From Tetradesmus obliquus (Eukaryota; Chlorophyta; Chlorophyceae; Sphaeropleales; Scenedesmaceae), in contig CP126205.1 in assembly GCA_030272155.1 (NCBI GenBank), forward strand, positions 856,501 through 920,500: a DNA stretch of 64,000 nucleotides. The letters run 5' to 3'. A program made the translations under genes and the position numbers. Positions within the stretch are counted from its first letter, which is position 1, and the number at the start of each line of letters is the position of its first letter. Positions 1-63,996 of this stretch are shown here, one piece after another. Below the pieces are notes generated by a model. That model did no database searches. It saw only the letters and a list, made by a program, of their open reading frames with translations, and was not told where the DNA came from.

Positions 1-1706
1 GCTTTGTGTACCACATAGATGATGGAGCAGTCAAGTCCCTCACAGAGTAAGTGCCATGTGGCGCAGGAAAGAAAGAGCGCATAGTATCGTATGCAGGCCA
101 GCACAGCTGCGGGTGTGCTGGGCTGCCTGCTATCAGCACACCTGTCACATGGTCTACCCTGAACCTTGTTCGGCTCGCAGTAAGGGCCACATATTGAATT
201 GCAGCTGCTGACTTTCTGTTGCTTCGCATTTACCACTGCTGCTGCTGCTGCTGCCACCTGCGGGTTCTACAGCAGCGTGTTCCCTCCCTCGGGCAGCGAT
301 GACATTACTCAAGCCATTGTTCACGTGGTCCTGCTGCTGCTGCTGCCGCTGCTGCTGCGCGTGCTGCAGGTCCTACGCAGTGTCTTTCCTCTCTCAAGCT
401 TGCTCATTGATCACAGTCACAACCGCCTCTGACGCGTGCTATTGTCACTGCTGCTGCTGCCGCCACCTGCAGGTTCTACGGCAGCGTGTTCCCTCCCTCG
501 GGCAGCGACGACGCTCACTCATGCCATTGCTCAAGTGGTCCTGCTGCTGCTGCTGCCGCTGCTGCTGTGCCTGCTGCAGGTTCTACGCAGTGTGTTTCCT
601 CTTTCAGGCTTGCTCATTGAATCACAGTCACAACAGCCTCTGACGCGTGCTGTTGTCATTGCTGCTGCGTTGTCCTGCAGGTTCTACAGCAGCGTGTTCC
701 CTCCCTCGGGCAGTGATGACGTGGCGATGCTGGACATCTGCAGCAGCTGGGTCAGCCACTACCCGCCAGGCTACAAGGCAGGCAAGATCGTAGGTGAGCA
801 AATTGGTGGACACACAGCAGCAGCAGCAGCAGCAGCAGCCGTGGCAGCAGCTAGGTCAGCCACTAGCCGCCAGGCTACAAGGCAGGCAAGATTGTAGGTG
901 AGCAAGTTGGTCGAAGCACAGCAGCAGCAGTGGCGGCGGTGGCAGCAGCTGCAGCAACAGCAATGGGGCAGCAGCAGCCGTGGCGGGAACAACAGCAGCC
1001 GCAGAAGGGTCATGAGGCTGCAAAGAGTGTGGCTGGAGGCTGCTCATGCCTTTGCGACTCTGCCGAGCCTTCCTTCGCGACCGGCAGCAATGTGCTGCGC
1101 CCAGACACCAGGCCCTTTTGTTGTAGCCTTCAGTGCACATTTCTTGCCACTGCCCTCAAGCCCTCGTCCCTGCTATGGGCTTTGTGCTGTGTTCTGCAGC
1201 GCTGGGTATGAGTGAGGAGGAGCTCAAGGCCAACAAGGAGGCCAGTGAGTACGTGGTGCACGACCTCCACTGCGAGCCAGACCTGCTGCCGCCTCCAAAC
1301 TTCTCAACCCTCTGACCACTCCGCTTCGCTTTTTGTGCCGTGCAGTGCTGAACAAAAGAAGGTGATGAAAATTCGTAACCTGCCGCCAGCTTCAGCCTCT
1401 CAGCACGCTATTGTTCTGACTTGCCGCTGGTGTTACTGCTTGAAGCGCTGGGCATGAATGAAGAAGAGTTGAAAGCCAACAAGGAGGCCAGCGAGTATGT
1501 GGTGCATGACCTCAACTTGGAGCCAGACCTGCCCTTCCCTGACAACAGCTTTGACATCATCACAAATGCTGTCAGCGTGGACTACCTCAACAAGCCCCTG
1601 GAGGTGTGTTACATGATGTTTACATTGTGTGCTCTTCTCAGCGTGAAGTGGGGTGATCCCGATCAGGAGCCAGGACATACTGCCGCAGAGACTGTGTAGC
1701 TGGGCG

Positions 1707-1748
<42 letters not shown>

Positions 1749-2658
1749 AGTGCATGCGTTTGGGCGCTGTGGCAGAGGACATCAAGCCTTTTCCTGACAC
1801 CCATGCTGCTGCTGCTGCTGCCGCTGCCGCTGCTGCAGGTGTTCCAGGAGATCCACCGCGTGTTGAAGCCTGGGGGCAAGGCCTACATGAGCTTCTCCAA
1901 CCGCTGCTTCCCTACCAAGGGTGAGCTTTATGTGACTGGCTGCATGTATGCTGCTTCGTCCATGTCGACAGCTCAACAGCCTCCAGCACCACCTTTGGCT
2001 GCTGCCGGCTTTTGCTGCTCAGCTGTTAGTGCACTTGTTCATCAATGCACGTGTACTGCTGCCACCTCTCCCGCCGCCCTCCCTTGCCGTGCCTCCTATC
2101 CTTCAGGCATCGTGCTGTGGACAGCCATAGGCGATGAAGACCACATCTGGATCGTGGGCTCATACTTCCACTACTCTGCACTTGCCCACACTGCACACTG
2201 CCACTGATTGCTCTGCTGCTGCAGCCATTGCGTTGTGGACAGCCACGGGCGACGAGGTTCACATGTAGATTGTAGGTTCCCACCCTTCACCAGCGCACCT
2301 GCTCAAAAAGGCACTGCTGCCTTGTGCTGTATTCTTCTCCTGCTGCAACTATCGTGTTGTGGACAGCCACGGGCGATGAAGACCACATCTGGATCGTGGG
2401 CTCATACTCCTGCCTGGACACGTGCTCATACTAACACTGCTGCTTCTGCCTTGCTGCGCTGCTACCCTTGTTGCTGCAGCCATCGCGCTGTGGACAGCCA
2501 CGGGCGATGAGGACCACATCTGGATCGTGGGCTCATACTTCCACTACTCGGTGCCAGGCGGATTCCACGAGCCGCAGGCCAAGGACATCTCGCCACGGGG
2601 CGGGCTCTTTGGCAAGTCGGACCCGATGTACGTGGTGTACGCTGAAAAGAAGGCGTAG
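1..2658 (+). CDS. SAM-dependent methyltransferase (class I, Methyltransf_11-like), 5' truncated by window edge
   Basis: Exons: 1-46, 681-793, 1446-1603, 1839-1920, 2480-2658 (TAG stop). All junctions are GT-AG and phase-compatible. Joined, they give HIDDGAVKSLTEFYSSVFPP, then VAMLDICSSWVSHYPPGYKAG (motif I-like region), then a segment holding DLPFPDNSFDIITNAVSVDY, then EIHRVLKPGGKAYMSFSNRC, and end GLFGKSDPMYVVYAEKKA. The acidic DxxFD block and the HRVLKPGG block are the post-I and motif III signatures of class I SAM methyltransferases. The methyl acceptor cannot be told from the sequence. The upstream exons lie outside the window. Every internal exon has partial tandem copies in the neighbouring introns (listed separately), including one that repeats the 3' end and 3' UTR beyond the stop. 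The acceptor used at 1446 (gaag before cg) is poorer than the one on the truncated copy at 1200. Family call is confident; substrate unknown. Confidence 0.85.
262..680 (+). repeat. Array of truncated copies of the 681-793 exon 5' end
   Basis: Copies of the acceptor plus first exon bases (…gcag/gttctacagcagcgtgttccc) start at about 262 and 472, with shorter, more diverged copies at about 368 and 577. Each is followed by a CTG-rich tract. The genuine exon follows at 681. The unit is roughly 210 bp and looks like a 105-bp dimer. None of the copies runs through to the exon's donor site. Confidence 0.85.
843..906 (+). repeat. Downstream relic of exon 681-793 (3' part plus donor)
   Basis: This stretch repeats about 748-806: the end of the exon (…ccaggctacaaggcaggcaag), its gtaggtgagc donor and the following agca.gttggt intron bases. 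CAG repeats separate it from the true exon. Confidence 0.85.
1200..1318 (+). repeat. Truncated copy of exon 1446-1603 with a good acceptor
   Basis: After ttctgcag the sequence encodes ALGMSEEELKANKEASEYVV and the start of the next block, as in the genuine exon. It then diverges (PDLLPPPNFSTL and a TGA at 1313-1315). It has no homologous donor, so it is a 5' relic and not a usable exon in frame. Confidence 0.85.
1707..1749 (+). repeat. CTG trinucleotide microsatellite in intron
   Basis: About 14 uninterrupted CTG/GCT units lie in the intron before exon 1839-1920. Confidence 0.9.
2106..2410 (+). repeat. Three truncated copies of the last methyltransferase exon
   Basis: Relics at about 2106-2177, 2226-2283 and 2345-2410 each begin with a cag-like acceptor. 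They repeat the start of exon 2480-2658 (tggacagccacgggcgatga and onward) to varying lengths. The middle copy contains an in-frame TAG. Units are about 120 bp apart. Confidence 0.85.
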
Positions 2659-4329
2659 GCATGCACGCATTGGTCTGATCAGCAGCATAGCCAGGCAATT
2701 GGCCACTGCAGCAGAGGCAGGAGCATGTGGTGGAGTGGGGGCTGCTGAGGGTAGTTAGCAGCGGCTGACTCAACGTTGGCATCAAAGAGGCTGCGCTGAT
2801 GATCAGGTGGCTTCCACGAGCCTCAGGCCAAGGACATCTCACCACGCGGCGGGCTGTTTGGCAAGTCGGACCCCATGTACATGGTGTTTGCGGAGAAGAA
2901 GGCGTGATGGGGATGTGATGATGATGATCAGCAGCATAGCCAGGCAATTGGCCACTGCAGCAGAGGCAGCAGCATGGGCTGGGCTGGTGGCTGCGGAGTG
3001 TAGTTAGCAGCAGCTGTTTTGACGTCAGCAGCACAGAAGCTGTGTTGACTGCAGTAACAGGGGCAGCAGCAATCACATGTAGTGGCAGCTGCTTGGTGTT
3101 CACATGGGCAGCTGGCGGCGGGCAGCTGCTTGGACCATGGTCAATGTTGTCGCAGCTGGAAGCGAAGCGTTACGTGTCATCCAGAAAGCTGGTCGATATT
3201 GCACCAGGGCTTGTCATGATCTGGTGATGCATCAAGAGCAGCAGCATGGCAGAGTCCTGCTGCCGCAGCTGCTGCAGCGCAGTGGTTGCTGACAATCCCT
3301 TTGCTCCCGATGCATGTGTCGCATGTGACGCTGCTTCTGCAGCCCGAGCTGTTGCTGTTTTGGCAGCTATCTCTGCTGTGGCACTCATGTGCGTGGTCAA
3401 ATGCAGTGTCACTGACTTGGCCGGGATGGTGTGGGCAGACTTAATCCACTGGGTTACACCAGCCGCAGCAGAACATTTGGCAGTGCTGTGAGCATTGCAG
3501 CTGTGTGTGGCTGCCTTCCGGCCTTTTTTTGACGCCACAGGCATTGTTCAAAGGTGTGTATTGTGTTCTACGGTGCTCACTCTCTTTCCTGGTCTCAGAC
3601 CTTGTGTTCAACCTGTTGTGGAGGGTGCCCGGACCCACATGTAACTATCCTCTTTCTCAATTGCATGGGTCGGCGCCTTGCTTGCTGTGTGTGCATGGCA
3701 GAGTATCAATGCTGCCAAGTGCTGCAGTGGCATGCGCCAGCTGCGTGGAGGGCCCACGTGTAACCATCCTGTTCTCTGAATGCTGCGTTCAACTGCTGTA
3801 GTGTCATGAGACTGGCCGAGGGTACATTAGTCGGCCAGCCTGACCCTGCATGAATGAATGGTTGAGCTGCGCATGGGGTTGTTTCACACTTAACACCAGC
3901 CTAAGTCAAGGAAGGGGACATGTGTGGTGATGAGGATACCTCATGCGCCTCCGCGCCTCCTACCATCAGATGCATGATTGCAGGTCCGTACAGCTTTGCC
4001 TGCTGTGGGCTCATGTTCGGACACCTCTCTGATCCTGGTGCTGCGCAGTATCCATCAGGCACCAGTAGCATGCGTGGTTGGACAAATGGTGATTACCATG
4101 CTTCTAAGCTTCAACACCCCCCCCCTCCTCAATATGTACCTCTGGATTTCCACAAAGCACGACGCCAGGAGGGCACGGGGCCCCGGGCATAACAGCTTGA
4201 ACACAACACACGTAGTTCTTGGGCATTGATGGCAGTGCATGCACAACTTTGTCGCGACCGTACAACACACACTGCAACAGGATGCCACACTATCTGCTTG
4301 AGTGCAGCGCGCCACTCAAGCACATAGCC
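2659..4329. other. Convergent intergenic region
   Basis: This lies between two convergent genes. Apart from the duplicated 3' end at 2806-2974 I see no gene. Short open frames near 3246-3491 and 3505-3801 lack homology, splice context or codon coherence. Confidence 0.5.
2806..2974 (+). repeat. Duplicated 3' end of the methyltransferase gene, past the stop codon
   Basis: Bases 2806-2908 repeat the end of the last exon and encode GGFHEPQAKDISPRGGLFGK, then a variant of the genuine C-terminus (MYMVFAEKKA) ending in TGA instead of TAG. Bases 2927-2974 repeat the 3' UTR segment of 2677-2724 (agcagcatagccaggcaatt). The duplicated unit is about 250 bp and is untranslated in the normal mRNA. Confidence 0.9.
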
Positions 4330-5513
4330 CTAACATGGCAGTCGGCAAAGTGATGCTGTCTGCAATGGAATCGACACCAGCATGCCTGCATTCAAGTAAT
4401 AATTTTTGCCCCAACACAGCACCTGCTGAGCCGCAGTCACAGCACAGTTGGAATCGAATGCTGCGTACAGCGCTATTACGCTGCTGAGGCCTTTGACCCT
4501 TAGAGGGGCGGTGCTTCCACCTGGCTTTTCTGGTGTGCCACTGGTGTAGCCCTGCCCCAACTGACCAAACTCGTTGTAACCCCAGCAATAAACCTGACCG
4601 TCCCTGCTGTCATGTGCATTGACAAAGACACAAGCATGTCGGTCGCCCACCACGACATGCTTGATGTTGCCCGGCAGCCCAGACACCTTCCAAGGCGGCC
4701 CAGGTGGCCAGTCATTTGAACTTTTACTGAACACGCCACCCCAACCATCGTCACCCCAACACCACAGGGAGGCAATTGAAGCGGCATGGCGGACAGTGGC
4801 GCAAGCAACACTCACACCTGAGAAAGAAACATACTCCACATCGGTGACGCCAGCATCATACCAAGTTGTTGCTGCTTCTGGATACTGCGGATCACTGTAC
4901 CGGCAGACCGCAGTGCGGTTCTTCCGAAGCGTACACAGCGAGTTTAAGCCTATAGAAATCGCTGTCACGTCAGCGGTGCCTGAAAAGTCTTTGGCTTGGT
5001 TCACGTGGCCATACACCAAGTCATAGACCGCACCCCAGCATTGCACTAGGGCGCTGGCATTGAGCGCTTCAGATGCACTGTACACCACGCACGCCTGTTG
5101 GTAAGCAAGATCCAATTGTGCGATTGGTGGGGACTGCCTCAGGCCCTTCACAGCCACAGGCCTCCCAGACGCCTTGCTTTGGCCATCTCCCAGCTCACCG
5201 CTTTCTCCTCTCCCAAAGCAATACACCTTATTTCCCTCGGTCGGGGCTGCCAGCACACATGTGGACTGGTATCCAACCTTCACACTGCTGACGGGGATGC
5301 CAGCAAGGACCTTGGCAGGTGCAAGCAGCGGGTGGTCGTCCCAATCTCTACCACCACGACCAAGCTGGCCTGAGTCATGTGATCCAGCACACTCGACGCT
5401 CCCATCGTAGAGCAGCACACATACATGGCCAATTCCCATAGCGACCTGCCGTGCGCAGCGTCTGCAGGCAGGGTCATCCGCCCGATCCAAGCAGCTGTTG
5501 AGACCACCTGTGC

Positions 5514-5545
<32 letters not shown>

Positions 5546-8504
5546 TGTTTAGGAGGGCTGTGTATAAAATTTTTCTACAGTCCCAAGGGCGCTTGCCCTC
5601 CCTGCTGCTGGCCGGCAGCGCATAGCTGCATCACATGCAATGACCTGCATAGCTGGGTGCAAATCTTCTCTAGAATTCCTTCATCATATGATGGAGAGAT
5701 TTTGCGTGCGTATGATGCATAGGGCCTGACAACGTTGCACGTTGAAGTGCACTGGGTGGCATGGACCTACTTGGGCCAGGTGATGGCGAAGGGCTTGGTT
5801 TGGGCGGCTTTGGTGATGGTGAGGGTGATGGTGTGGGTGGCAGTACCGGGCTAGGTGATGCTGGTGGGTCATGGGGTAGCAGCGCGCTGCTCAGCAGCTG
5901 CGCTGTCCTGCCGCACAGCTTGAAGGGCCCCCAGCTGGCTGCGGACAGGCTGCGCAAGTGTCCAAGGTTTGATGTTACTAGCTCGGATACGACTTCAGCC
6001 TTGCGCATGTGAAGGGCATTGAGTGCAGCTGTGAATGCAAGTGTTGTCAAATCAGCTGTCAGCTTGATCAGGCGCAATGGCTGCTTTGCTGTGTACAGCA
6101 CACACCCTGAGGTGCTGACATCTCGCATAAGGGACCCCTGTTTGATCCTTTGCTTGATCACAGCAGCCTGGCTTGTGATGGTAGCCCTTGTGTACTGTAG
6201 GGCGAAGGTGTAGTCAGATTGCATGATGTAGGCGGAGCCGTAGGCCATTTGAAATTGCCGTTGAGCCCTCAAGCCTCGGACCAGCTGCATAACACACAGT
6301 ATATACGTTATGTGATGCTGATATGCTGACGAACGGGCAGTCATTCCTAGAGAGGACATGCGCAAATATTTAACAGTTATCTGTGCATCAACGCACACGC
6401 AACTGCCATTCACATGTGCGTACACGTTGCTCGGAGTTTACATGTCGGACGCCGGCTGTAGACACGTCTGTACGGCAGCATGTACGGCATTATGTCATGA
6501 CAGATTGACAACTCACAGCGCCGTTGAAAGCGTGCCCACCTGTTCTTGCACAGCCGATAGCCATCACTCACACTGCGGGGGCTGTCCCACCAACCGTAGC
6601 AGAACACAGCATGCATCCTCCCATTGGCACCTGTAGGGATGTCTTGCGCTGCAGTGAACACGCCATCTGCTGCTGCTTTGTAGTCCACAAACCGCAGAAA
6701 GTCAGTGTCTCTTAGTGCCATGGAAGTGGACACGCCACCATTCACCATGATTTGCTCCTTCACCAAAGCCATGGATGATAATGCGTTGCCATTACACACC
6801 ATGGAGAGCCCACCACATGCAGCACACAGCAACACGACTCCCGTGCATTGAAACTAAATGAAAAGCTACCATGTCGGGATTACGTGATAATACGTGGGCA
6901 ATAAACGGAGATACGTTCAATCAAGATTGCTGTGCCGCCAACATGCACATCAAGCCACTGCATGCTGAAGCGGCTACCTCAGACGCTGGTTTTAATGGCA
7001 ATGCCTGTGGTGCCTGTAAATGCCTGCATGCGCTGCCGCCTGTATGTGCTACTTTTGCTGCCTATACTAGCTGCATGCAGCACATGCTTGTACTACCTGC
7101 AGTGCTCGCGTAATGCCCACTGGTTTGAAACGTGCTGCTGCTGTTGCTAGCCAGCGCACCTAGTGGCATCTGAGATGCACCCGGGCCTGCACAATAGCCG
7201 CCAGGGCTGACAGGAAGACAGTCCTCGTCGTTGCGGAACGTGAACCCAAAGCAGCCGCGTGAAGCCCACTGCGTTACTTTGCCGTCAAAAGAATCAAGCA
7301 CTGCATCAAATGACGCGCCAATGTCGCAGCTTACCCGGGGGCGGAGCCTGCAAAAGCATACTGCGACCGCTGGTTAGCAAAGTTAGCAGCAGCAAGGGCT
7401 AAGCAGCAGGGTCTCAGCAGCAGACTCGAACAGGCAATGATCATAATCGCTGGCTGAAAGGTGCATTGCAATCCAGCTTGTACAGAACAGTGCAGCCCCG
7501 GGACCCTTGCAGCTGCTGCCACGCTGAGTTTGACCACAGCTGCCGCCAGCCCTGCCGCTGCTCACTTGCAGAAGCAGAGGTCCTTGACTGACAGGCCCCC
7601 CTTGTGCCAACTCCGCTGCCGCTGCCGCTGCCGCTGCCGCTGCCGCTGCCGCTGCCGCTGCCACTGCCGCTGCCGCTGCCGCTGCCGCTACCGCTCACTT
7701 GCAAAAGCAGAGGTCCTGCTCTGACAGGTTGAGCTTGTGCCAGCTCTGCTGCTTGTAGACATTGACGGCAGCCTCAGCAGCAGCAGTGACTGCAAACCCG
7801 ACACAGGCAGAGCAATCCCCTTGTTTCTGCACAGCAGCATGCGGCAGCGGGAAGCAGCAAGTGCAAAGCAGCAGGATGTAGCACAATCTGATGCTGCTGC
7901 AGACAACATGTACAGCTCGCCAGACCAGTGTGCAGTATCGACGCAGCATACGCTGTCCATGGCGGTTGCTACTGTGCAAAGTATCAAACAAGTATGTTAG
8001 TGTTGATGGCTCAGGTAAATGCATACGCGGACCTTTCCACAACAAAGGGCTACTGTGCCCCATACCAGAAAGGCTGCTGCCAAGACCTTCTTTTGACCAT
8101 TTTGCTGGTGTGTTATTTCCCTCGCCCTTATGAGCCTCGCGTTGGCTCCTGATGGGGCCCCACCCCTCTGTTGAGCGGAGTATGTCACGTAACGTTAACA
8201 TTACGTCACGCTTCAAGCTGCCCCCACCTGAGCAGGGCTGATGAGTGCCACACGGCCGGGCGTATCTGCCGTGTTGTTGGACGAATAGCTTGCAGGCGTC
8301 AGCGCCAGCAGCAGCACATCCGTGCAGTCTGCATCCAGTGTGTTACTTGTGTTGCATGCTGCCTGGGCAATCTGTGCTGAGCTCATGCCGGCCCCGAGGT
8401 TTAAAAGCACGTCCCTCTTCCTCCTGCTGAAGGCATAGCTCCGCTTTGTTGCATTTGGGGATGAGGCAAGGCCCTTGTCTATGTACTTCAGACCAGTGGT
8501 GTAC
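4330..8504 (-). CDS. Papain-like (C1A) domain / Pro-Ser linker / RCC1 propeller fusion, copy A (possibly a pseudogene)
   Basis: Minus-strand exons, 5' to 3': 8228-8504, 7699-7826, 7160-7347, 6540-6837, 5771-6284, 4330-5507 (stop at 4330). The layout matches copy B exon by exon; the first two exons are 277 and 128 nt in both. The papain nucleophile loop reads QGDCSACVGFA, so Cys25 (papain numbering) is kept although the usual following Trp is Val. The His is in GRMHAVFCYGWWD and the Asn in LCKN. Next come a (PSP)n linker and RCC1 repeats (CFGRGESGELGDG, CWGYNEFGQLGQG). Two defects: the acceptor homologous to copy B's at 60863 lacks AG, although a phase-compatible AG exists at 6838-6839; and exon 5771-6284 is one base short after CKN-SW, giving an early TGA in the expected phase. 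The first exon is unresolved; a phase-compatible donor sits at 8820/8819. It is probably secreted. It is either a decaying gene or spliced differently. Confidence 0.7.
7562..7600 (-). repeat. 3' relic of the active-site Cys exon, copy A
   Basis: On the minus strand this repeats the end of exon 7699-7826 and its donor (gacctctgcttctgcaagtg). It lies just downstream of the GCCGCT array. Confidence 0.75.
7613..7694 (+). repeat. GCCGCT hexanucleotide microsatellite
   Basis: About 13 GCCGCT units, with one interruption, abut the donor of exon 7699-7826 and separate it from its relic. Confidence 0.95.
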
Positions 8505-15550: not shown

Positions 15551-17053
15551 TTAGCGGTGCTGCTGCTGCTGCCGCGCCTCAACCACTTCTTGCTGCAGCT
15601 CCTTGAAGCGCTTCACTGCTGTGGCCTTTATCTCAGATATCTCCAGCTGGTGCTGCTGCTGCAGCTGCTGCAGCCGCACTTCGTACTCCTGCTGCTGCTG
15701 CACCAGCAGCTGCAGCAGGCCAGCCTGCAATGCACTGGCAGCTGGCATGCTGCAGGCCTGGCAGCAGCAGCTGCTGCTGGCTGTGCAACACGCTGCCAGG
15801 GCTTGCTGCAGCCTGTGCTGCAACTGCTCTGTGCCATGCTGCGGCACGACTATCTGCTGCTGGTGCTGCTGGTGGGTTGTAGCAGTTGCACTATCACCCG
15901 TCACTAGCTGGCGCTGCTGCTGCTGCTGCTGCTGCTGCTGACCGCCATGGCTGCTGACAGCAGCTGCTGCTACTGCAGCAGCTGGTGGTGGAGGAGGCTC
16001 TCGCTTCTTCAGCAGTGCCTGCTGCTGCTGTTGCCAGCTGCGCTGCAGTGAGACAGGACTCGTAACACCTGCAGCCGCTGCTGCACTGCCTGTGCTGTCG
16101 AGACTACCCCTAGACTTGATGTTGCTGCCACTTGCTGCTGCTGCTGCTGCGCTGCTGCTGCCAAGCCTGCTCCCTGCCTTAGGATCAGCAGCGGCAGCAG
16201 CAGCAACAGCAGCGTCTGTTGCACTGCGTGGGCTGCTGATATGCACGCTGCTCATAATGGTGGCTGTGTCAAGCGCTGCAAAAGGATTGATGTAGCTAAC
16301 ACCTCCCACTGCACTGTCACCTGAGCTGCCAGTATCACCAGCAGCAGCTGCTGATGCAGCAGCACCACTGCCAGAGGGCCTGCTTGTACTGCCTGTACCG
16401 TCGGCTGATGGTCGATTTGTACTGCCTGTACCGCCAGCTGAGGGCCTGCTTGTACTGCCCGTACCGCCTGCTGTTACCCTGCCTGTACCGCCTGTACTGT
16501 CAGCTGATGGCCTGCCTGTACTGCTTGTACTGCCTGCCAGTATCTGCTGTGCTGTGGCTGCCACCTCAGCTGCAGACCTGCCTAGATGTGATACTGTATG
16601 CTGCTCAGTGCTGATAGGGCGAATGGCAGCAGCAGTGCCCCCACTGCTGCTTGTCCGGCCGCTAACTAATGCTACACCTAATGCACCACTTGCTGAATTT
16701 GCAGCTGATGGTGCTGACTGCAAGCTACTGCCTGTCGGCTGTTGACTGGTCATCTGTTGACTGGTCATCGAGGTGCTGCTGCTAAGAGGATGCTGCTGCT
16801 GCAGCTGTGCAAGATGTTGCGGCGAGTTGCTTGTTTGGCTGTACTGCTGCTGCAGTACACTAGCTGCTTGTTGCTGCTGGTGCTGCTGCTGACTGGGCCA
16901 GAGCTGTTGCTGCTGCTGGCTTGGCCACTGCTGCAAGGGTTGGGGCACTGCTGGATACAAGCTGCTGCTGCTGCTGCTGTTTTGGAAGGCGCTAGCAGCA
17001 GCAGGTGGTGCTGGCGGCACCGCTGCATGTGTGACTGCTGGCGCTGCTGCTGA

Positions 17054-17089
<36 letters not shown>

Positions 17090-27962: not shown

Positions 27963-28001
<39 letters not shown>

Positions 28002-46915: not shown

Positions 46916-49379
46916 CTGCGCGCACTATCAGCAGCCTTGCCAGCTCCATTGCTGCCGCTGAACTATAGGTTAGGCAGCTGCAGCGGGCAGGTTCCATCTG
47001 TGTGTCTTTACGCCTGTGAATAAGAGAGGAACGGCAGCCACCAGTGTGGTTGAAGGGATCGCCTGCAGCGTTGCAATAACCATGCTGTGCGTCATCAGCA
47101 GTGACCCTGACATTGGCCGGTGTTGTGGTCCGGTGCTGGGTTATGCCGGGTTCAACCAACACTGAAGGGAGGTGCACCTGCACACTGTGCTGGTTGACGT
47201 CAGCTGCTGATTGAACAGGGTTTGTGTGCCTTTCATTTCTAGGAATGTTGTCCACGGCCAGCGCCATAACGCCATTTCATCTCTTGATTGCTAAACGCCC
47301 CTCCAAGCCCAGCATGTCTTGTGCTATGCCTCTTGGAAGATGACAAGGGTGTGACAATGCAGGCAGGCAGGTCCTGTTTGGACTCAGGATGTCAGCCCAT
47401 GTGCACTGGCCGTGACTGTAGTGACGCCATCCCTCCACACACAAATGCACAGCCAAGCACTGGAACTAGGTAGTTTCTTTGGTGTGCGTGTCAGCAATGT
47501 GAGCTTGTACATGTGAGTATCCCTTTGATGCAACCTGGCTGCACTCGACCGTCTGTGTGTGTCTGTGTTGGTGTGTGGCCGTGTGCCTACAACCATCCCT
47601 TGTGCTGCTGGACTGCGTTTTGCAGTCTGCAGTTTGCTGGTTCTGCTGTGCTGCTTGCAGCCATCGCTGCACAAGCATGCACAGAAAGTGCAGTTACAAT
47701 GCCTTGTTTAGCATGGGCAATTTATTGTAGGTTCAGTGGCGGAATATTGCAGAAGCACTTGCCTGCAGGCAACCAAAGGTTTCATCTACCGAGGCTTGCG
47801 GCCATTGTGGTTTGCTCATTGTTTCAGCAGCTGAGAACCATGTGTCCCCATACACCAGGTCCTGGCATGCAACCCAGGCTGGGGGGGCTTGCCTTTCAAG
47901 CAAGCTTCCTCAGCAGCAATGTCTGCTCACAGTCATGGTGTGGCAAGCGGTTGACACGGCCACTGCCAATGCCAGGGCAAGTTAACCTGCTAGTTCATGG
48001 GGTCTACCGTCTAGCCTGATCAGACTGTGCTGGTTTGGCTCAAATTGCAGGGCAGGGGAGGGGGCAGCCTTGTCTGTGGCATGTCTGGACTACATCGATT
48101 TGCGAATGTACATGTGTCTGAACAAGCCCCTTTGCTTGCAGCAGCTTTTCACAGCTGGGCAACGCAGCTAGTTGATGCTATCATCCTGGGGCTGTCTTCC
48201 CTGCTTTGTGGGCGCACCATCTGTGCTGCCGATTTGGTGGCATATAATGCCGTAGGAGCAGCCTATCTTGGAACTGCATGCAGACATGCGTTTCAGGCTG
48301 TGTTGCATTGTATGGCTAAGGTTTAGGGGCATCCTAAAGATGCCTGGGTCCATCACTTTTCCCCTTTGATGGCTAGCGTGTCTGAAAGTTGCCTTTCTTA
48401 CTGGATCGAATGCTGTTGCCACATACGTCATGTATAAGAACGAATCTACACATCCGCAGAGTCCTCACGGACTGCATTGGATGCGAAACTGCACATTCAA
48501 GCAAAGCTGCGTCAGACTAACACAGGGCGTTATGTTAACACGTGTTCGTGTAAAATGACGAACTCTATACAAATGTACCCATGTTTCATATAACCTGCCA
48601 GCATCTTGCAGCTGCGTGGTACGTAAGACGCCCACAGCCCGGCTATGTGCCAGGCGATGTGCCCGGCTGTGTGGGCTGCACAACAGCTGCAGGTTGCTGC
48701 GCCATACTCAGGGATGCATACAGCCTGCCAGCTGTAGGCTGCTGCGTCATGCGCCTGCATAACAGCTCCAATCAACATGCACCACAGCAGCCGCCACTGC
48801 CCAGCGGCGTGGCCATGCAGTGCCTAGCACAGCTCCTCCTGGCCCCCATCTGCTGCACATCCAGCGCTTGCTACAGAACCGCAATGTACAGTCAGCTAGT
48901 GCCACTGCCACTGCAAGCTGCAAATGTGCACAGTGATGTGATTATGCTCACAATCCTGCAGGGATTTCCTCAGGAAAGTTTCCTGCAGGAACATGTCCCA
49001 GGAGAGTCGCGGCATGCCTGCTGAGCATCAACAGCAGCGCGGCTGCTGCGTTATATTTGCCTGACCTCTGCCATGCCAATGCATGCTAATGCAAAAGAAT
49101 TACTAAGAGGTTGCAGTGCTTATAGTAGCACGTCCCATCTCAAAAGGTGCCAGGACATACACTCGACCACCTCCCTCATTGCAGTGCATCTGCTAGGGCT
49201 GCTACCAGCCCATTGAATGTTGAAAAATTGCGCGACACAATGTGCACTGGCAGCCCCAGCACATCGCCTGCTGTGACCCGACCACTGCTGCGGCTAGCAG
49301 CATGCTGAGCATCAGTAGCCTGATACGGCAGCTCGGCTGCTGCATCCTACTTGCAGGCTGCCAGCCAGTCCACTGCCTG
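46916..49379. other. Convergent intergenic region
   Basis: This lies between the 3' ends of the uncharacterised gene and the UROS gene. Apart from the duplicated UROS 3' end at 49181-49275, no gene was seen. Open frames at 47513-48019 and 48027-48326 have no recognisable product. Confidence 0.45.
49181..49275 (-). repeat. Duplicated 3' end of the UROS gene beyond its stop
   Basis: This is a near-identical copy of 49384-49478. On the minus strand it reads VHIVSRNFSTFNGLVAALAD and then diverges around the stop. The unit is about 203 bp. Confidence 0.9.
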
Positions 49380-51454
49380 CTAATGCAGTGCATCTGCTAG
49401 GGCTGCTACCAGCCCATTGAATGTTGAAAAGTTGCGCGACACAATCGGCACTGGAAGACCCAGCACATCCCCTGCCCCAGCTGCTGTGTACGGCCCGTGT
49501 GCTGCCAGCACGGTGCAGTGCTGCTGCACAGCTGACACCACAGCTTCCTTGCCATCCATCAGCAGGCACAGCCCTTGTGCCTGCGCAGAAACAGATTGTG
49601 CAGCAGCAGCGGCAGCAGCAGCAGCAGCAGTAGCAGGAGCAGCAGCAGCGGCATGATGTTGGCGTAGCGCCTGTTCAATAGGTACCTGACGCGGCCTGCT
49701 GCTGCCGGTCGAAGCCCGGGGGTTACTCACCAAGCTGCAGCCTCCTTGACGCAGAAGGGTGCCACGAGCATGTCTGGTGCTGCACATGCTTGCCTGATAC
49801 CACTCTCCTGCAGTACCGCCATTGCAAGCCGCAGCTCTGCTGAATTTCACTGCCACTGCATGCTGCATTGCTGCCGCATTGCAATCAAGGTATGTGCGAC
49901 GCTGCTGCACCGGGCAGCACGCTGAATGGAACTGCCACGCCTTGCTGTGCCTGCTCAGCAGTCTGCAGTCTGTCGCATGCGCAGGCACGGCAACAGAATG
50001 ACGGAGCCAAATACAGCAGTCCGCTACCAATGCATGTCATATGCCTGCCGCCACCTACCTCTGCTGTGCTGCTAAAAGCAATGGCATCAAAGTACCCCTG
50101 CTGCAGCAGCGCAGCCTCCTTTGCGCAGCACTCAGGGCCGGGCAGTCCCAGCGAGGTGAGGTAAGCAGGCACACGCAACGCATCGGCACCAGCTGCTGCC
50201 AAGGCATCCATGAAGCGAGGCACAATGGGCGGCTCCACCAGGCCGCCTGCATGAAAGGCAGAAACCAACCACACACGTTGTGAAAACCTGCCAAGCTGCA
50301 GTGTTTCGCTGCCACGGCATCCATGAAGCGAGGCACTATGGGTGGCTCCACCAGGCCGCCTGCAGGGACCCACCATGCATGGTTGTGTAACATGGCATTG
50401 CTGGGACGAAAATGTTTCTGCTGGCTGCGAAAAAGCAGCAAGAAAGCCATGCAAGCTGGCTGTGAGGCAGTTGCCTCAACAGTGCTAGATGCTGCATATG
50501 CTCCACAACTGCATCCCCACTACTAGCAGCTGCAGGCACTGCATGCAGGCCAAGCCCATGCATGCAACTTACTCATGTTCATTACATGTGGAGCACACAC
50601 ACAGTGCACACAGTCGATAGTCAACAGCTGCACCCTTTGTCCCTGCAAGCATGCACGCTGGCTGAACACGCACCTGCAACATGTGGCACAGGGCACAGTA
50701 TGTGTGCCCCTGCTGCCTGGCTTGTTGCAGCCAGCTCAGCTGCCAGGCCCTTGGTGCTCGCTTCTTTTGGTGACACATGCACCTGCAGCAGCAGCAGCAG
50801 CAGCAGCAGCACCAGCAGCAGCAGCAGGGTGGCAGTCTGACAGCAGTGACAGCCACGGGCGTCAACTGCCACAGGGATTGTGACAACGCACAGTGCATTG
50901 TGCACTGCTGGCAGTGCACATCATAAGGCCCCCTGAGGCATGGATGTGCTACCCCACGCACACCACGCCCAGCCGGTGCAATATTTTTTTAAATACGACG
51001 TGCATCCATCCTTGCAGCAGGTTATGCTGTAATGCCTCATATACCCGCTCCATATGCTTTCATACCTGCAGCCCCGCATCTCTGAGGACCTGACCATCTG
51101 CTCCTAACGCACACAGCTTGATGCCTGACTGCTGCACATACTGCACCGCTTCTTCAGGGCCTGTAACATTGACAGCCATACAACAGCAGCAGCAGCAGCA
51201 GCAGCAGCGGCAGCAGCAGCAGCAGCAGCAGCGGCAGCAGCAGCGGCAGCAATATAAGCGCAGCAACATAAGTGCATGGCAGAGGACTGTGGTCGCAGCC
51301 GGGGTGAATGCACTTGCCTGTCTCTATTGCAACGCCACAGCACTGCTGACTGTACATATTGTGTGAGGTAAACACCAGTAGAACACTGCATATGCACTGT
51401 TGTGATTCTTGCGAGATGTGCCGCCTTTCAGATCCTTCCTCAGCTGCTGCTGCA

Positions 51455-57544: not shown

Positions 57545-59975
57545 ATGCTGGTGTTTCTACTCGTAACTGTGCCGCTCACCTTGGCACGGGTCAGCGGCGC
57601 GTCGGTGCAGGGTAAGCGTGCAGTAATGCTGGAACGCTGCGAGCAAACGCTATTTTCTGCTGAAGATACCGGTTTCAAATATATCAGAGTCACGGGCTTT
57701 CCTTTGCACCTGTTGTACATAAAACACGGCGCATCACACGGTGCACGTGTGTTGTTCCTGCAGGGTGCTGCGCAGCACTGCATGCAGCTGCAGCACTGCA
57801 TGCAGCTGCAGCACTGCATGCGCGTGCATGACATTGCAACGTGAGCAGCCATGCAGACGCCATTGCTGTTGAGCATCAGCTGCAGAGGGATGCAGTACAT
57901 TTCACCTGCAACCTTGCAACCTTATCACACGTTTTGAAGTAACTATGCAGCAGCCACGCTGAGCTGCCTCAGCAGCACTGCTGTTGTGGTGTTGAAAGAG
58001 ACAGCATCCAGCTGTCTGGTCCCTTTTTCCTGCAGCTCTATACCCGCTGCTTTCTCAGCAGCTTGACTAGCAGCACTTGCATGCAACTGCGCAGTTGATA
58101 CTACACCTAGCGCCCAATTGCACATAGCGCTCAGCAGCACTGCTGTTGCTGCTGCTTGTTGATGTGGCTGTTCATCTGCTGTCTGGCATTGCTGCAGGTG
58201 GCGACGGGCTGCTGGGAAGGCGCTTGGCCCAAACAGAAGGGTAGGTTCTCTAGCAGGGCTCTAACTGCCTGCTTCATCCCAGTCTTGCAGAATGTGTGAC
58301 TGCCGCTGTACTGCTTTGCCAACGAATCCAGCATGTCAGTTAACCACGTGTCTGTAATGTCACACCTGTAGCTGCTCACAGCGCATGGGGTGCTGCTGCA
58401 CTACCACTGCACTGCACTGCACTGCACTGCACTGCGCTGCGCTGCGCTGCACTGCACTGCACTGCACTGCACCGCACTGCACTTCTCTGCAATGCACTGC
58501 ACTGCACTGCAATGCAATGCACACAGTCCTGCTGTTGGTGAGTGCATTGTTGTACGGTACCTTCTTTCTCCATCTAACGATGCAGCTCTCTTGTGTACCT
58601 GTGCAGGCGCAGCACTGGCTTGGTCTATTCCGCAAAAGGCGTAAGCACCCCACCCGCAGAAGCACGCCGCACCCTGGCAGCTAGCCGTACCAGGAGGAAT
58701 GCAGTGGCTGCCCTGCCTGCTGGAGCCACCACGAAGCAGATTGCGCAGGCGGCGTGCCGCAAGGATAACCTTGAAGATCTGCAGTGTGCCGACGTGCTGC
58801 TGCTGGCGCTGACTCCTGCAAGTTACTCTTCAAACAACACAGCAGACACGCCTGGCCGGCGGGCCCTCATTAGCCCTGCTCAGGTGAGGGCGGCTTTTGG
58901 CATGTGATTTTGGAATGTGATGCGTGTATGGAACGGCAGTGGTCAAACAACACGGCAGACACGCCTGGCCGGCGCGCCTTCATCAGCCCTGCTCAGGTGA
59001 GGGCGGCTTTTGGCATGCGATCTTTGGAATGTGATGCGTGTAGTGGAACGGCAGTGGTCGAACAACACAGCAGACACGCCTGGCAGGCGGGCCCTCATTA
59101 GCCCTGCACAGGTGGGAGCATGGCAGGGTTCAAATAAAGCTGCTTGCTGATGCTTCCAGTGATTGCGCGTGCCTGCGGCTGTCCAGTTGCACAAAGCATC
59201 ATAAGCCCTAATCAGGTCGTGCGAATGCCTTGCAGGCAGGTCCACACGCAGCTGTGTGTTGCATGCAGTTGATTCATGCAGCTGCGAGTTGATGCTAGAC
59301 AGTAGCCTGATTCATGTGGCATGGTTGTGTGTCGCTCAACAGTTCGGCTTGTGGGTTGTGTGACTTGCAGGATCAATTCAGCTGCGCTGCTGGCGTAGGC
59401 TTTGCAGCTACTGCTGCTGCTGAGGCTGCCATCAACGTGTTCAAGCAGCAGGGCTGGGACAGGCTGAGCCTGTCAGAGCAAGACTTCAGCTTCTGCAAGT
59501 GAGTCGTAGCAGCAGCAGCAGCAGCAGCAGCAGGGCTGGGACAAGCTGAGCCTGTCAGAGCTGGGCTTCAGCTTCTGCAAGTAAGACAAAGCCGGCTATA
59601 CAGGGCTTGTTATACCGAGTTTGCAGTTCGATGTCTATCTGGCTTCGCAACGTTGACTTGACGACAGGATGCTGTTGAATGCGTGCAGCGCCTACGTTCA
59701 AAAAAGTGCCTTGCTAATAGTGACGCCACTTTGTGCTCTGCTTGCAGGATGAAACCGCCGGTCAACTGTGCATCCGGAGCATCATTTGAGACAGTGGTCT
59801 CTACCATCAAGGGCAGCCTTGTCACAAAATGGGCTGCTCGCAGCTGCTACAGCTACATTGATACTGGCTGCGCAAAAGTCAACGCTGGGGGCTCGTGCGC
59901 CTCGCAGCTGCCAGCTGGTGAGACGCTGTGTTTGCTGAGCGAGCGAGTGAGTGAGTGAGTGAGTGAGAGCGCACG

Positions 59976-60014
<39 letters not shown>

Positions 60015-63000
60015 ATGCTGGCATGCATGCGTGCGTTGGTGAGTTAGTGAGTTGGTGTGCGTGCCTGCGTGCGTGCGTGCCTGCGTGTGTGTGTGCGTGC
60101 GTGCGTGGGTGCGTGCGTGCGTGCTGGCATGCATGCGTGCGTTGGTGAGTTAGTGAGTTGGTGTGAGTGCGTGCGTGCGTACGTACGTGTGTGCGTGCGT
60201 GCGTGCGTGCTGGCATGCATGCGTGCGTTGATGAGTTAGTGAGTTGGTGTGAGTTGGTGTGAGCGAGTGCATGAATGAGTTAGTGTGAGTGAGTGAGTGA
60301 GTGTGAGTGAGTGAGTCGGCGTGTAGGGGCTTGCGTGGCTGTCGCAGCTGCCAGCAGAACGAAGCCGTGGTGGCAAGGCTCGGGAGCTGCTGCCATCACA
60401 TCAATTAGCTTGCAGATGCTTGCCAGGTGCAACCGAGGCATTGCGCCCCGGCCTGAACATCTGAAGCTGTCATTTTACATCTGCAGCGTGGGTTGCACGA
60501 GCTCGCCCATGACGTGGCAATCGGTGCACTCTGCTGCTTCTTGGAGTTGCCATCGCCTTCGTTGCCTGCTGCTGCCGTTGCAGCTATCCGATCCCTGCTT
60601 GCTTTCAGATTCACTTTGATCGGGAACGTGTCAGTAGCCGATGATAGGACTGCTCTCGACAGCATGGCGCAAGCAGCACTGCGCTGCTTTTGGGCATCAG
60701 CACGACTTTCTCAAACCCCCGTACACTGTGTGCACTCCTGCTGTAGGTGGTGCGCTGTCAATGGCTTGCGATGAAGCTGCCCTCAACAACAACATGGCGC
60801 CTGAAGCACTATACGGCACCTTTCCCGTAACCTGCGTGCCCTTGACTGTGTTTGTACTGTAGGTGGCGCATTTTCAATGGCCTACGATGGGGCTGCACTC
60901 GACAGCATCGCCAAAGTGAAGGAGCAAATCATGCTGACAGGAGGAGTCCTCACATCCCTGGCCATGTCGCAGCAGGCTTTCAAAGCCCTCTCTAACAATG
61001 AGACAGGCGCAAACGGGGCGTATGCGAGGGCGGAGGATCTCAGCCGGGCGGCTGTGGCAGGTGTTGTGATGCATGCGGTGTTCTGCTACAGCTGGTGGGA
61101 CAACCCGCGCAACACCAGCGACGGCTACTGGCTGTGCAAGAACAGGTGCGTGCGAATGATGCCGCTTACACTTTTGTGGAGTGATGTGCATGGCTGTCTC
61201 AGCGGGTTGCTGTGGCGGTGGCCTGCTATTTGCTGGCATAGCAGTCTGCCTATCCTTGCAACACCAGCGATGGCTACTGGCTGTGCAAGAACAGGTGCGT
61301 GCACGACACACCAGCGCCCTGCGGTGTGTGGTTTTCTCACCTGGGTCAACGTCTGCTGTGAGATGACAGTGTTGTGCTGTGCGGTGTGCTTTGCATACTG
61401 GAAGTAAGCTGGTGCTTGCAATTGGAGATGACACTGCTGCTGCTGCTGCTGCGCATGCATCCTGCGATTTAGATGGCCAGGGCCTGGTACACACAAGCTC
61501 TCTTCTCAGCGTGTGCATGACATTCAACGCTGCTTTGCCACACACCTACCCCAGTCTAAGCCTTTCCCCCTGCTGTGCCGCTTGTTGAATCGGCTGCTTG
61601 CCGCTTGTGCTTGCAGCTGGGGGACCCAGTGGGCCCTCAAAGGTTCCTTCAGGGTGGCATACGGCGCAGCCAACATCATGCAGCCCAGCTACACCTTCGC
61701 CCTACAGTACAAGCCATCTGCTGTGAACCAACGAGTGCAAGCCATCAAGCAGCAACTCAAGGCAGGCATCAAACTCGATTCCGACTACCAAGGCTGTGTG
61801 CTGTACACACCTTCTCAGCCGCAGCGCATAATCAAGCTGGTGGATGACCTGGCTCTGCTTGGAGCTAACACTGTAAGTGCAGCACAGCGCATGAGCAAAG
61901 CCGAGATCCTGGCAGGTGTGGTAGCATCTGGGGTCAACTTGCGCACCTTCTCAGCCGCCAGCAGGGGACCCTTCAGGCTGTGCGACAGGACTGCTCAGCT
62001 GGCAAGTGACCTGGTGCCTCCATCAACACCATCACCCAGCCCACCCCCACCACCCAGCCCGTCACCATCCCCCTCTCCCTCTCCGTCCCCGTCACCCAGC
62101 CCGTCACCCAGCCCATCACCCAGCCCATCACCCAGCCCGTCACCCAGCCCATCACCGTCACCCAGCCCATCACCCAGCCCGTCACCATCGCCCAGCCCAT
62201 CACCGTCACCCAGCCCTGCGCCCAGTGAGTGCAGCAGGCAGACTTGCTGCATCCAGCACGATGCTGCGGCAGCAGATTCAGCAGGTTGCGTTGGATGCCC
62301 ACATGTATGCACACGGCAGATGCAGGCAAAGGCTCTTTGCCCGACACCATCAGCAGTGCCATGCTGCAGGTGTTGCATGTTTTGACACACTTGCGTGCAT
62401 AAACACAGCTGCTTCATCTCGTGCTATGGTGTTGTCGTGGATTGAACAAAAGTGTGTACCCTTACCAATGCACATGTGTTTGAGTGCTCATCAAGGCGCA
62501 CACGCACGCTCACATCATGCTTACATGCGAACAAGGAAAGTTTTAGGCATGGTAAATGCACAACTGCGCACCTGCAAGCAACGCTGGTTAGAAGCCCCCT
62601 GCCGTACTTGTACATGTGCGCGTACTGCAGCATGATGTGTCCGATGGCTACGCAACACTTGGGCCAAGGCCATGGCAACACACATTAGTGCATGCATACA
62701 GTTTGTACATCAAGATTTCTCGCCAACAGTTTAATAGTTGCTGCGGAGAGCTGATAACAACTTGCTGCCAATGCTGCTGCAGACCTTCAGCAGTGCGACC
62801 AGCCAGGTAACACCGACCCGGTGTGTCAGAACTGCGCACGGCAGGTGGTGTCATTCAATCAGGATTGCATCTTGTTCAACAACGGCAGCCTCGCGTGCCT
62901 TGGAAGCAATGAGAATGGGCAACTCGGGCGTGGGACCACCAGCAGGGATGAACCCTTCTTTGCACTGGCGACTGTAGTGTCTGGAACCCCCATCAGATCT

Positions 63001-63996
63001 GCAGGCACAGGAGAGCAGTTCACATGCGTCTTGGCAGATTCCCCGCAGACTAATAAGGTGCTGTGCTTTGGTTATGGAGGGGGTGGTGAACTTGGGGACG
63101 GCAGGACATACGCAGCCAGCCCCCTTGACCCCGCTTCTCGGTCCCTGGCGGCTGTAGAGGTGCAGAACCTGAAGCAGTCGTCGCAGCTGTTCACAACCCC
63201 GCGCATAACCCAACTAGTAGTCGGCCAAGACAGCGCGTGCGTGTTGTACGAGTCATCAGCAGGCGCTTGGGATGCTGCAGTGCAATGCTGGGGAGCCAAC
63301 TACGGACTCTCAGCCACGAATGTGGCTGGCACAGGGGACGCAGCAGCGATCGCGATGTCCATATCAGGCAAAGGCGCATGCATGCTCGCGAAGCAAGGCA
63401 CCGTCTTTTGTTGGTCCAACGCGATCAGTTTCACGAAGCCGCTGCCTCAGATTGTAGGCGGGATGTCCAGTGTGGTCCACATCTCCTATGGTGGATACAC
63501 AACGGCGCAGAACGTCCCTGCGCCTGTCGGGTGTGGGATTGTGCGGCCCCAGGGCGAGAAGGGATCCGTGTGGTGCTGGGGCCTTGACCAGATGTTCAAG
63601 GGGCTCCTTTCAAACCGCGCAGCCCCATGGCAGGTGCAGGGGCTGCCTGACGGGAACGCGATTGATGTGGTGGTTGGTGCCGCCCACGCATGTGCGCTGG
63701 TTGATGTGCGCCGCGGTGAAGTGTACTGCTGGGGAGCCAATCACCTCGGCCAGCTGGGGCAGGGCTACAGCAACGGCACATGGGCTGATATCAAAGGCAG
63801 CGCCGTGCCGCTGAAGGTCAAAGGGCTCGACGGCGTCAGCGTGATCAGCTTGTTTGGCCGCACTCCCACGTCGACCCTCACATGCGCAAAGGCCAGCTCG
63901 CAGCGCGTGCTGTGCTGGGGTGCCGCGTTCTTCTCGTTCCAAGACCCGATAGGGACATGGTATGCCGCTAGTCCCCTGAGCGGGCTGTGTGCTTGA
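57545..63996 (+). CDS. Secreted papain-fold (C1A-like, inactive Cys) / Pro-Ser linker / RCC1 propeller fusion, copy B (929 aa)
   Basis: Exons: 57545-57611, 58198-58240, 58607-58883, 59371-59498, 59748-59917, 60863-61145, 61617-62224, 62783-63996 (TGA). The total is 2790 nt, exactly 930 codons. Residues 1-20 are a signal peptide (MLVFLLVTVPLTLARVSGAS). Residues 130-330 have the papain fold: oxyanion Gln131, then QFSCAAGVGFA where papain has QGSCGSCWAF, so the nucleophile Cys is Gly137; His299 (VMHAVFCYSWWD); Asn322-Ser-Trp (CKNSWGTQW, formed across the 61145/61617 junction). Residues about 458-524 are a PSPSP/PPPP linker like those of algal wall proteins. Residues about 540-929 hold RCC1-type repeats (CFGYGGGGELGDG, VYCWGANHLGQLGQG) rich in cysteine, fitting an extracellular propeller. 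Exon phases prove the fusion is one reading frame. It is a pseudoprotease by motif; it may bind rather than cut. The first two exons rest on phase and signal-peptide logic and are less sure than the rest. Confidence 0.85.
58407..58525 (+). repeat. ACTGC pentanucleotide microsatellite
   Basis: About 20 units of (A/G)CTGC with AATGC variants lie in the intron before exon 58607-58883. Confidence 0.95.
58930..59115 (+). repeat. Two 3' relics of exon 58607-58883 (118-bp units)
   Basis: Copies of aacaacac.gcagacacgcct… (SNNTADTPGRRALISPAQ) with cag/gtgagg or cag/gtggga donors end at about 58997 and 59111. The intron segment gtgagggcggcttttggcat is duplicated too. Confidence 0.95.
59505..59590 (+). 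repeat. 3' relic of the active-site exon, preceded by a CAG run
   Basis: CAG repeats (59507-59535) are followed by a copy of the exon end (gggctgggacaagctgagcc, then tcagcttctgcaa/gtaaga). Confidence 0.93.
59939..60322 (+). repeat. GTGA/GCGT tetranucleotide array with higher-order repeat
   Basis: Runs of GTGA and TGCG alternate. The block tgctggcatgcatgcgtgcg followed by ttggtgagttagtgagttgg recurs at about 60014, 60121 and 60209. It is intronic. Confidence 0.95.
60740..60795 (+). repeat. 5' relic of exon 60863-61145
   Basis: ctgtag/gtggtgcgctgtcaatggct copies the start of the true exon (gtag/gtggcgcattttcaatggcc). A more decayed fragment of the following bases lies at 60640-60675. Confidence 0.88.
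61258..61300 (+). repeat. 3' relic of the Asn-motif exon
   Basis: caacaccagcgatggctact, then ggctgtgcaagaacag/gtgcgtgc, copies the exon 60863-61145 end including its donor, 118 bp downstream. Confidence 0.95.
62010..62222 (+). repeat. Coding CCCAGCCC(A/G)TCA minisatellite (PSP linker)
   Basis: Short repeats such as cccagcccatca and ccgtca encode the Pro-Ser linker of copy B. The homologous linker in copy A (about 5771-5860) is much shorter. Confidence 0.93.

Follow-up and report, generated by a model that had tools for sequence, protein, structure and literature searches.

Tandem duplication within genes is well known, and internal gene duplication, including tandem exon duplication, was reportedly treated by Gao and Lynch in 2009. 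Such events copy whole exons or coding repeats. Here we describe a related pattern in a window of 64,000 nucleotides (nt) of nuclear DNA from the green alga Tetradesmus obliquus (CP126205.1, positions 856,501–920,500; contig C15 of the 104.66-Mb, 17-contig genome), in which introns hold partial copies of the exons that adjoin them, nearly all with a single exon end. The copies resemble internal gene duplications in lying within the gene and in the part that unequal exchange would play; however, they are partial exons, unable to serve as exons themselves. We consider that they probably arose as small tandem duplications spanning exon-intron junctions, which were filtered by the reading frame and amplified by unequal exchange, and whose exon parts were renewed by gene conversion.

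Several described systems can be compared with this locus. Small tandem duplications that arise from the repair of staggered breaks by Pol alpha-primase/CST are documented in humans and plants (PMC8355091). They are short, local and direct, as the copies are here, and would give a one-sided rule whenever a junction was spanned. In the part of that report available to us, the insertions are mostly shorter than 100 base pairs (bp) and arrays and introns are not treated, whereas here the periods are 80–160 bp, up to four copies stand beside one exon, and the copies are concentrated in some genes. In a described route of intron gain, a tandem duplication of exonic DNA is tolerated and the extra copy is spliced out (PMC4974935). 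As far as the accessible text goes, a new intron forms there between the duplicated exon copies, whereas here an existing intron grows and the copies are one-ended. Introner elements (PMC9860276) also generate new intron DNA from copies; they are dispersed in the account at hand, whereas each copy here derives from the adjoining exon. No introner-type, near-identical elements at unrelated sites appeared in the self-comparison of the window by blastn or in searches with non-adjacent exons, which did not extend to a genome-wide search of the spacers. Volvocine algae are likewise green algae with long introns, longer than genome size predicts and for an unknown cause, and the portion of that study available to us describes no exon-end copies (PMC8226300). 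Each of the processes concerned has been described before: small tandem duplication by break repair, duplication inside genes, unequal exchange, and the gain of introns through tandem duplication. The open-access listings that we scanned contain no account of introns crowded with one-ended exon copies. An initial reading of the window from its letters alone (the sequence-only reading) had stated that it knew of no named description of the process; this stands for the present form but not for within-gene tandem duplication in general.

Four genes were annotated by hand: RPN1, an unnamed second gene and a papain-family gene in the window (Table 1), and a sugar transporter gene in a sampled stretch of contig C11 (L032). 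The exons of RPN1 join into one frame of 892 codons and a stop, and the best match of its protein is a T. obliquus record that is 99% identical over the full length, with few residues differing. That record agrees with the 15 true exons alone and holds no trace of the copies. The three other models likewise join into open frames, and all 37 introns of the four models are of the GT-AG type.

Each intron was queried with the ends of its two adjoining exons, with trinucleotide runs masked here and in the intron-length analysis. In the 37 introns, 61 exon-end copies were found, 28 on the acceptor side and 33 on the donor side: 34 in RPN1 (14 introns), 5 in the second gene (8), 5 in the papain-family gene (4) and 17 in the sugar transporter gene (11). 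They cover 35% of the intron bases in RPN1 and 12–27% in the other three genes. All lie inside introns, the acceptor copies upstream and the donor copies downstream of the intact exon. A copy of a whole exon would carry both acceptor and donor; however, exons of at least 200 nt had 25 copies of the expected end and one of the other, the query for the wrong end, with 90 nt of exon, being somewhat shorter than that for the expected end, with 110 nt of exon and 40 nt of intron. Across the four genes, reverse-complement queries gave two matches and non-adjacent exons none. With the score cut-off lowered, RPN1 alone gave 40 copies together with 3 wrong-end and 9 reverse-complement matches, and a mean of 1.25 matches to non-adjacent exons.

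The sequence-only reading had claimed roughly fifty such copies in about nine genes, obeying a strict side rule. The three annotated window genes hold 44 copies, and the side rule is borne out by the counts above. Nine genes were not confirmed, and the rule is less than strict, since by alignment 3 of the 33 donor-side copies end before the donor and 1 of the 28 acceptor-side copies starts inside the exon. The reading was right that the copies have diverged to different degrees, as their exon parts differ from the true exons by 0 to about 24%. Two further regularities were considered and rejected. That every copy ends at a splice site holds for those of highest identity, but 33 of the 61 reach at least 20 nt into the intron in a permissive alignment (18 of 28 on the acceptor side and 15 of 33 on the donor side). 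A fixed order of donor before acceptor copies was seen in eight of the ten introns with both kinds, so it is not strict.

When a tandem duplication covers an acceptor, its partial copy necessarily lies upstream; when it covers a donor, the partial copy necessarily lies downstream. A duplication within an exon will usually disrupt the reading frame. Therefore, the side rule is the expected outcome of tandem duplication and no separate law. What is unusual is the number and the upkeep of the copies, not their one-sidedness.

The self-comparison of the window by blastn, with low complexity filtered as in all our blastn runs, gave 75 repeat pairs, 69 direct and 6 inverted. All 69 direct pairs were local, with at most 874 bp (median 72) between the copies; in this comparison no direct pair was separated by more than 0.9 kb, and none of the local pairs was inverted. 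The six inverted pairs all belong to one gene pair 50 kb apart. Simulated control sequences (one first-order sequence per 10-kb piece) gave no pair in either orientation. The repeat periods peak at 100–140 bp with a second hump at 220–260 bp; the idea that periods of 235–250 bp represent two units was dropped, a middle copy being clear in only three of nine intervals. The first six 10-kb pieces of the window contain 9, 9, 19, 22–23, 1 and 5 direct pairs.

For the rest of the genome, 25 stretches of 10 kb from seven contigs were sampled, 20 of them from just two contigs; two read N, leaving 23. At the threshold used for the window, 12 of these had no local direct pair, one was a minisatellite, and 10 had between 1 and 39 pairs. 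Local pairs in the sample (gap below 1 kb) were 146 direct and 2 inverted, with 58 of the 146 from the minisatellite. Outside the window the copy load is very uneven and concentrated in some genes. With 12 of 23 samples free of pairs and a single pair in the 40–50 kb piece of the window, the description of the copies as window-wide is not confirmed, and their presence in nearly every gene is too strong a claim. Pairs read without annotation in four further samples (L025, L027, L029 and L033) include exon-like stretches bounded by CAG at the acceptor or GTGAG at the donor, and also some that resemble coding or simple repeats. The minisatellite (L020, contig C1, 1–9031) consists of 9 kb of 36-bp and 66-bp units, and another sample (L014, 4889–10000) holds a 1.4-kb tandem duplication of 100% identity with further partial copies. 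CTG/CAG trinucleotide runs are very common in introns of the window and the samples, often just 5' of acceptors, and CTGCAG is itself the common motif at that splice site.

Within the four genes, 62 local pairs were counted: a true exon takes part in 52, both members are exon-derived copies in 6, and the remaining 4 lie wholly in intron sequence. Exon-derived sequence is thus involved in 58 of 62, against 30–84% expected by random placement, depending on the gene and on past intron length: units of 80–160 bp would span a junction in 30–47% of placements with the present introns and in 64–84% if the introns were once one third as long. The size of the excess is uncertain because pairs from a single array depend on each other and pairs confined to introns decay more quickly. 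An annotation-free edge-motif test, which is weak, was applied after the minisatellite, pairs longer than 400 bp and pairs with more than 1 kb between copies had been dropped. In the window, donor motifs stood at the right edge in 8 cases and at the wrong edge in none, and acceptor motifs in 15 and 9; the sample gave 8 and 4 for donors and 10 and 7 for acceptors. Among sample pairs of at least 60 bp, fewer acceptor motifs stood at the edges (5) than within the repeats (12.2 on average). An independent codon-score test, after the same exclusions, found no clear coding excess in the repeats: at the lowest threshold the scores were 0.71 against 0.45 in the window and 0.50 against 0.45 in the sample, and at higher thresholds they were at or below the null. 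This test is low in power because the partial exons are short, but taken by itself it does not support an enrichment of exon sequence.

Introns are longer by 140 ± 18 bp for each exon-end copy that they hold (r = 0.79), close to the usual repeat period. The median intron is 253 bp without copies (12 introns) and 684 bp with copies (25 introns), and a single intron holds up to six. Splice sites were scored in 52 hand-chosen copies, 26 donors and 26 acceptors, the more decayed copies being omitted. GT is intact in 24 of the donors and AG in 23 of the acceptors. The 25th percentile of true sites is reached by 19 of 26 copied donors and 15 of 26 copied acceptors, compared with 2.1% of other intronic GT and 4.8% of other intronic AG. 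Median donor scores are 9.6 bits for copies, 9.7 for true sites and −3.4 for other GT, and median acceptor scores are 9.3, 10.0 and −2.0 bits, respectively; the matrix was built from the 37 true introns, so copies of these training sites are favoured. Most of the tested copies therefore look splice-competent, and splicing would appear to ignore them as decoys. The sequence-only reading had proposed that local duplication inflates introns with splice-competent decoys; the association with longer introns and the look of the sites both agree with it.

The following course of events would account for these features. Segments straddling an exon-intron border would be duplicated in tandem, mostly with periods of 80–160 bp, and selection would purge the duplications that break the frame, leaving an intact exon beside a partial copy, which would sit in the intron upstream of that exon where an acceptor had been spanned and in the one downstream where a donor had been. 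The first step may be break and repair. The two exon copies would then act as short direct repeats, between which unequal crossing-over or replication slippage could add units with identical spacers. Recombination without crossover, i.e. gene conversion, would rewrite the exon part of a copy from the working exon while its intron part decayed. Each event would add roughly one unit to an intron, and the introns would come to be full of decoy splice sites. The copies that are 100% identical to their exons suggest that duplication may be continuing.

Whole-unit duplications, in which the intron part remains similar, are found at RPN1 exon 11 (260 bp; exon 93%, intron 89%), between the RPN1 exon 12 copies at 29816 and 30051 (intron 97%), in papain paralog B (113 bp) and in the sugar transporter gene (125, 88 and 118 bp). 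The last copy of RPN1 exon 14 looks like a plain 153-bp tandem duplication, and CAGT, a possible microhomology, is common to both ends of this unit, read by eye at that one unit. A repeat over the full period is therefore present for some units; most copies have an intron part that cannot be aligned, and none is seen for them.

In arrays of at least three copies, the inner spacers are 93–100% identical (40 nt compared), often more so than the adjoining exon copies. Identities of exon copy and spacer are 0.87 and 0.95, 0.94 and 1.00, and 0.92 and 0.95 in the sugar transporter gene (at 3800, 4997 and 6901), and both 0.93 at 58883 in the papain-family gene; the RPN1 exon 12 copies at 29816 and 30051 are 0.92 identical in the exon and 0.97 in the intron. 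Unequal exchange predicts that the inner copy of a donor-side array resembles the far copy at its 5' end and the true exon at its 3' end, and the reverse for acceptor-side arrays. Mosaics of the predicted polarity occur in three arrays, with few informative sites and three contrary ones in all. In the sugar transporter gene, the copy at 3733 has six far-copy sites, then four true-exon sites, two contrary sites and one true-exon site, and the copy at 4960 has one site and then two in the intron head. The RPN1 exon 12 array is arranged mirror-wise, with one contrary, two near-side and then four far-side sites. Together, the mosaics and the identical spacers show exchange between repeats of only about 40–95 bp.

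The two parts of a copy are often of very different identity. The exon and intron parts match at 73 of 73 positions and 0.56 for RPN1 exon 7, at 46 of 46 and 0.48 in the second gene, at 0.97 and 0.47 in the papain-family gene, and at 0.99 and 0.50 on the donor side of RPN1 exon 12. A single molecular clock is excluded, since the most that constraint on one of two partners can do is to halve their divergence. Moreover, the introns are not especially fast-changing, as whole-unit pairs such as that of exon 11 stay similar in the intron. We infer that a near-identical exon part beside an unalignable intron part reflects gene conversion with the working exon. Changes specific to the copies fall at codon positions 1, 2 and 3 in the numbers 20, 28 and 39, which is near neutral, those specific to true exons in the numbers 0, 0 and 3, and shared patterns in the numbers 2, 0 and 18; the MAFFT alignments of exons 6 and 13 behind these counts hold doubtful stretches. 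Judged from the alignments, this is the pattern expected for dead copies taken from a living exon at different times.

In 34 of 39 copies there is little similarity past the exon-side edge (z < 2.5); taken as groups, the copies nevertheless exceed unpaired controls there (p = 0.003 and 2e-4). Such faint similarity is what old units with renewed cores would leave. Old arrays with renewal are also favoured because older, decayed copies lie further upstream of exon 8 (a weak match) and of exon 7 (suggested by eye).

An inverted paralog of the papain-family gene also lies in the window. Both paralogs (A, 4333–8500, minus strand; B, 58660–63993, plus strand) encode a papain-family peptidase, then a proline/serine-rich stretch and then an RCC1-like domain, as seen from Pfam matches for B and by eye for A, each being taken as possibly one gene. 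A donor-side copy occurs at the same place in both (7555–7620 in A). At this one locus, the copies are 0.80 alike within A and 0.92 alike within B, the identity between the A and B exons is 0.83, and that between the A and B copies is 0.73, which would fit conversion within genes. Alignment and inspection by eye, with no systematic search, did not show in A the two remaining donor-side copy sets of B, which were therefore either acquired by B or lost from A.

Some observations weigh against this account. The intron parts lack strong similarity (z < 4) in 36 of 44 hand-chosen copy-exon pairs, from which more decayed copies were omitted, so a plain tandem origin is not visible for those 36; the 18 weak donor-side pairs show no residual intron similarity as a group (p = 0.14). 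Conversion between repeats of 40–110 bp with unrelated flanks would act on lengths shorter than usually thought efficient. In the mosaic tests, the sugar transporter array at 6852 was mixed, papain B had no switch and exon 14 was uninformative. The papain copy common to both paralogs could be a parallel duplication, and the A and B introns are too diverged to reveal an empty site. Longer introns are larger targets, so the slope of intron length is no proof of direction.

The alternative that survives best, which we regard as unlikely, is that the initial step places just an exon end, together with its splice-site motif, in the intron at a distance of some tens of bp to about 170 bp, by templated insertion during break repair or as a filler-DNA duplication, and that intron sequence is never duplicated. 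The near-identical copies (78/78, 51/51, 78/79 and 44/45 nt) do stop 3–8 nt into the intron, their spacers and far flanks are unlike each other, and most copies have the sharp exon-side edges described above. However, the many copies that reach at least 20 nt into the intron, the whole-unit duplications, the paired similarity kept by the weak acceptor-side intron parts (p = 8e-4) and the faint group similarity beyond the exon-side edges all speak for duplicated intron sequence. We know of no machine that would stop at splice sites. A related and more doubtful proposal takes the copies that stop after 3–8 nt as the primary event, the copying of exon ends running as far as the splice-site motif and stopping there; the break or the repair template would perhaps be set by structures linked to splicing, such as R-loops or nascent RNA, or by templates that hold exons only, for instance complementary DNA.

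Equally improbable is neutral tandem duplication without conversion, in which the exon half would stay detectable longer because one partner is constrained. The near-neutral changes of the copies and the whole-unit duplications agree with it. However, exon parts at 97–100% beside intron parts at 47–56% exceed the twofold effect that constraint on one partner allows, and the intron identities at exons 11 and 12 speak against a very fast intron rate.

An assembly or haplotype artefact, with allelic segments set side by side, is very improbable. Where copies and exons differ, third codon positions are favoured (110 of 163), as they would be between alleles, but an artefact would hardly give up to four copies per exon with graded divergence, mosaics of predicted polarity, near-neutral copy-specific changes and the same pattern on other contigs; the graded divergence had led the sequence-only reading to argue against assembly error, and we agree. 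It is just as hard to believe that the copies work as alternative exons or regulatory exons and are maintained by selection: the tested splice sites are about as strong as true ones and the overall third-position lean had hinted at coding selection, but the copy-specific changes lean to third positions only weakly and do not bear this out, nearly all copies have one exon end, and the RPN1 protein record agrees with the true exons alone.

Table 1. Genes and exon-end copies in the window (positions counted from its first nucleotide)
Feature	Position	Strand	Basis
RPN1 (26S proteasome non-ATPase subunit 2) gene, 15 exons, 34 exon-end copies	21836–33769	+	hand annotation, protein match
RPN1 exon 2, donor-side copy, GTGAGC kept	22827–22908	+	
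RPN1 exon 3, acceptor-side copy, AG lost	23353–23437	+	
RPN1 exon 3, donor-side copy	23763–23807	+	
RPN1 exon 4, copy of 3' part, ends short of donor	24501–24580	+	
RPN1 exon 5, acceptor-side copy	24659–24716	+	
RPN1 exon 6, three donor-side copies (ends 25353, 25467, 25616)	25282–25621	+	
RPN1 exon 7, acceptor-side copy, 78/78 nt identical, period 127, intron part unalignable	25834–25911	+	
RPN1 exon 8, acceptor-side copy including 28 intron nt; an older, weak copy at 26753	26877–26977	+	
RPN1 exon 9, three donor-side copies	27527–27881	+	
RPN1 exon 10, two acceptor-side copies	28017–28210	+	
RPN1 exon 11, acceptor-side copy	28611–28675	+	
RPN1 exon 11, two donor-side copies, the first a whole-unit 260-bp duplication	29062–29397	+	
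RPN1 exon 12, acceptor-side array (starts 29581, 29816, 30051, weaker 30203); 29816 a mosaic of its neighbours	29576–30250	+	
RPN1 exon 12, donor-side copies (30573–30636 weak, 30694–30772 98.7%, 30825–30881)	30573–30881	+	
RPN1 exon 13, acceptor-side array (starts 30920, 31119, 31350, 31586)	30918–31768	+	
RPN1 exon 14, acceptor-side array (starts 32284, 32419, 32556, 32692)	32278–32819	+	
RPN1 exon 15, two acceptor-side copies	33380–33572	+	
Second gene, 9 exons, one open frame, 5 copies	35563–40079	+	hand annotation
Second gene, acceptor copies	~36585–36624, ~36698–36737, 37626–37663	+	
Second gene, donor copies	37140–37187; 38673–38723 (51/51 nt identical)	+	
Papain-family (PF00112) gene, paralog B	58660–61960	+	Pfam, open frame
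Papain B, donor copies	58943–58999, 59058–59114, 59526–59585, 61258–61302	+	
Papain B, acceptor copy	~60744–60790	+	
Paralog A of papain-family gene, inverted	5920–8500	−	
Methyltransferase-like gene, further exon-end-like repeats, unannotated	239–3048	+	named by eye
Two acceptor-side-looking repeat pairs, each starting GCAG/TGCAG, unannotated	49180–50364	−	

Further features of the window were noted beside these genes. A short match lies one period upstream of the RPN1 exon 7 copy, at 25775–25788 (by eye only). The second gene had no Pfam match in the 384 amino acids tested. An intron of the papain-family gene contains an expansion of a TGCG-type tetranucleotide with a higher period of 86–106 bp (59974–60228). 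On the minus strand, 15554–17668 forms one open frame (705 codons) with many runs of Q, A and S and a 33/66-bp repeat at 16374–16537. A similar stretch (ATCAGGAGCCAAC... then CTCATA) was seen by eye in two unrelated introns, at about 8100–8155 (minus strand) in the window and at about 6125–6165 in L032, and is possibly a dispersed element.

The copies also bear on the annotation of such genomes, in which gene finders and repeat annotation may take them for exons. With up to six copies in one intron, many of them scoring like real sites, and an RPN1 protein that bears no trace of them, these genes offer a natural test of splice-site choice. The cause of the long introns of volvocine algae is open in the part of that work available to us (PMC8226300), and the roughly 140 bp by which introns are longer per exon-end copy in T. 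obliquus point to a concrete and countable source of intron growth.

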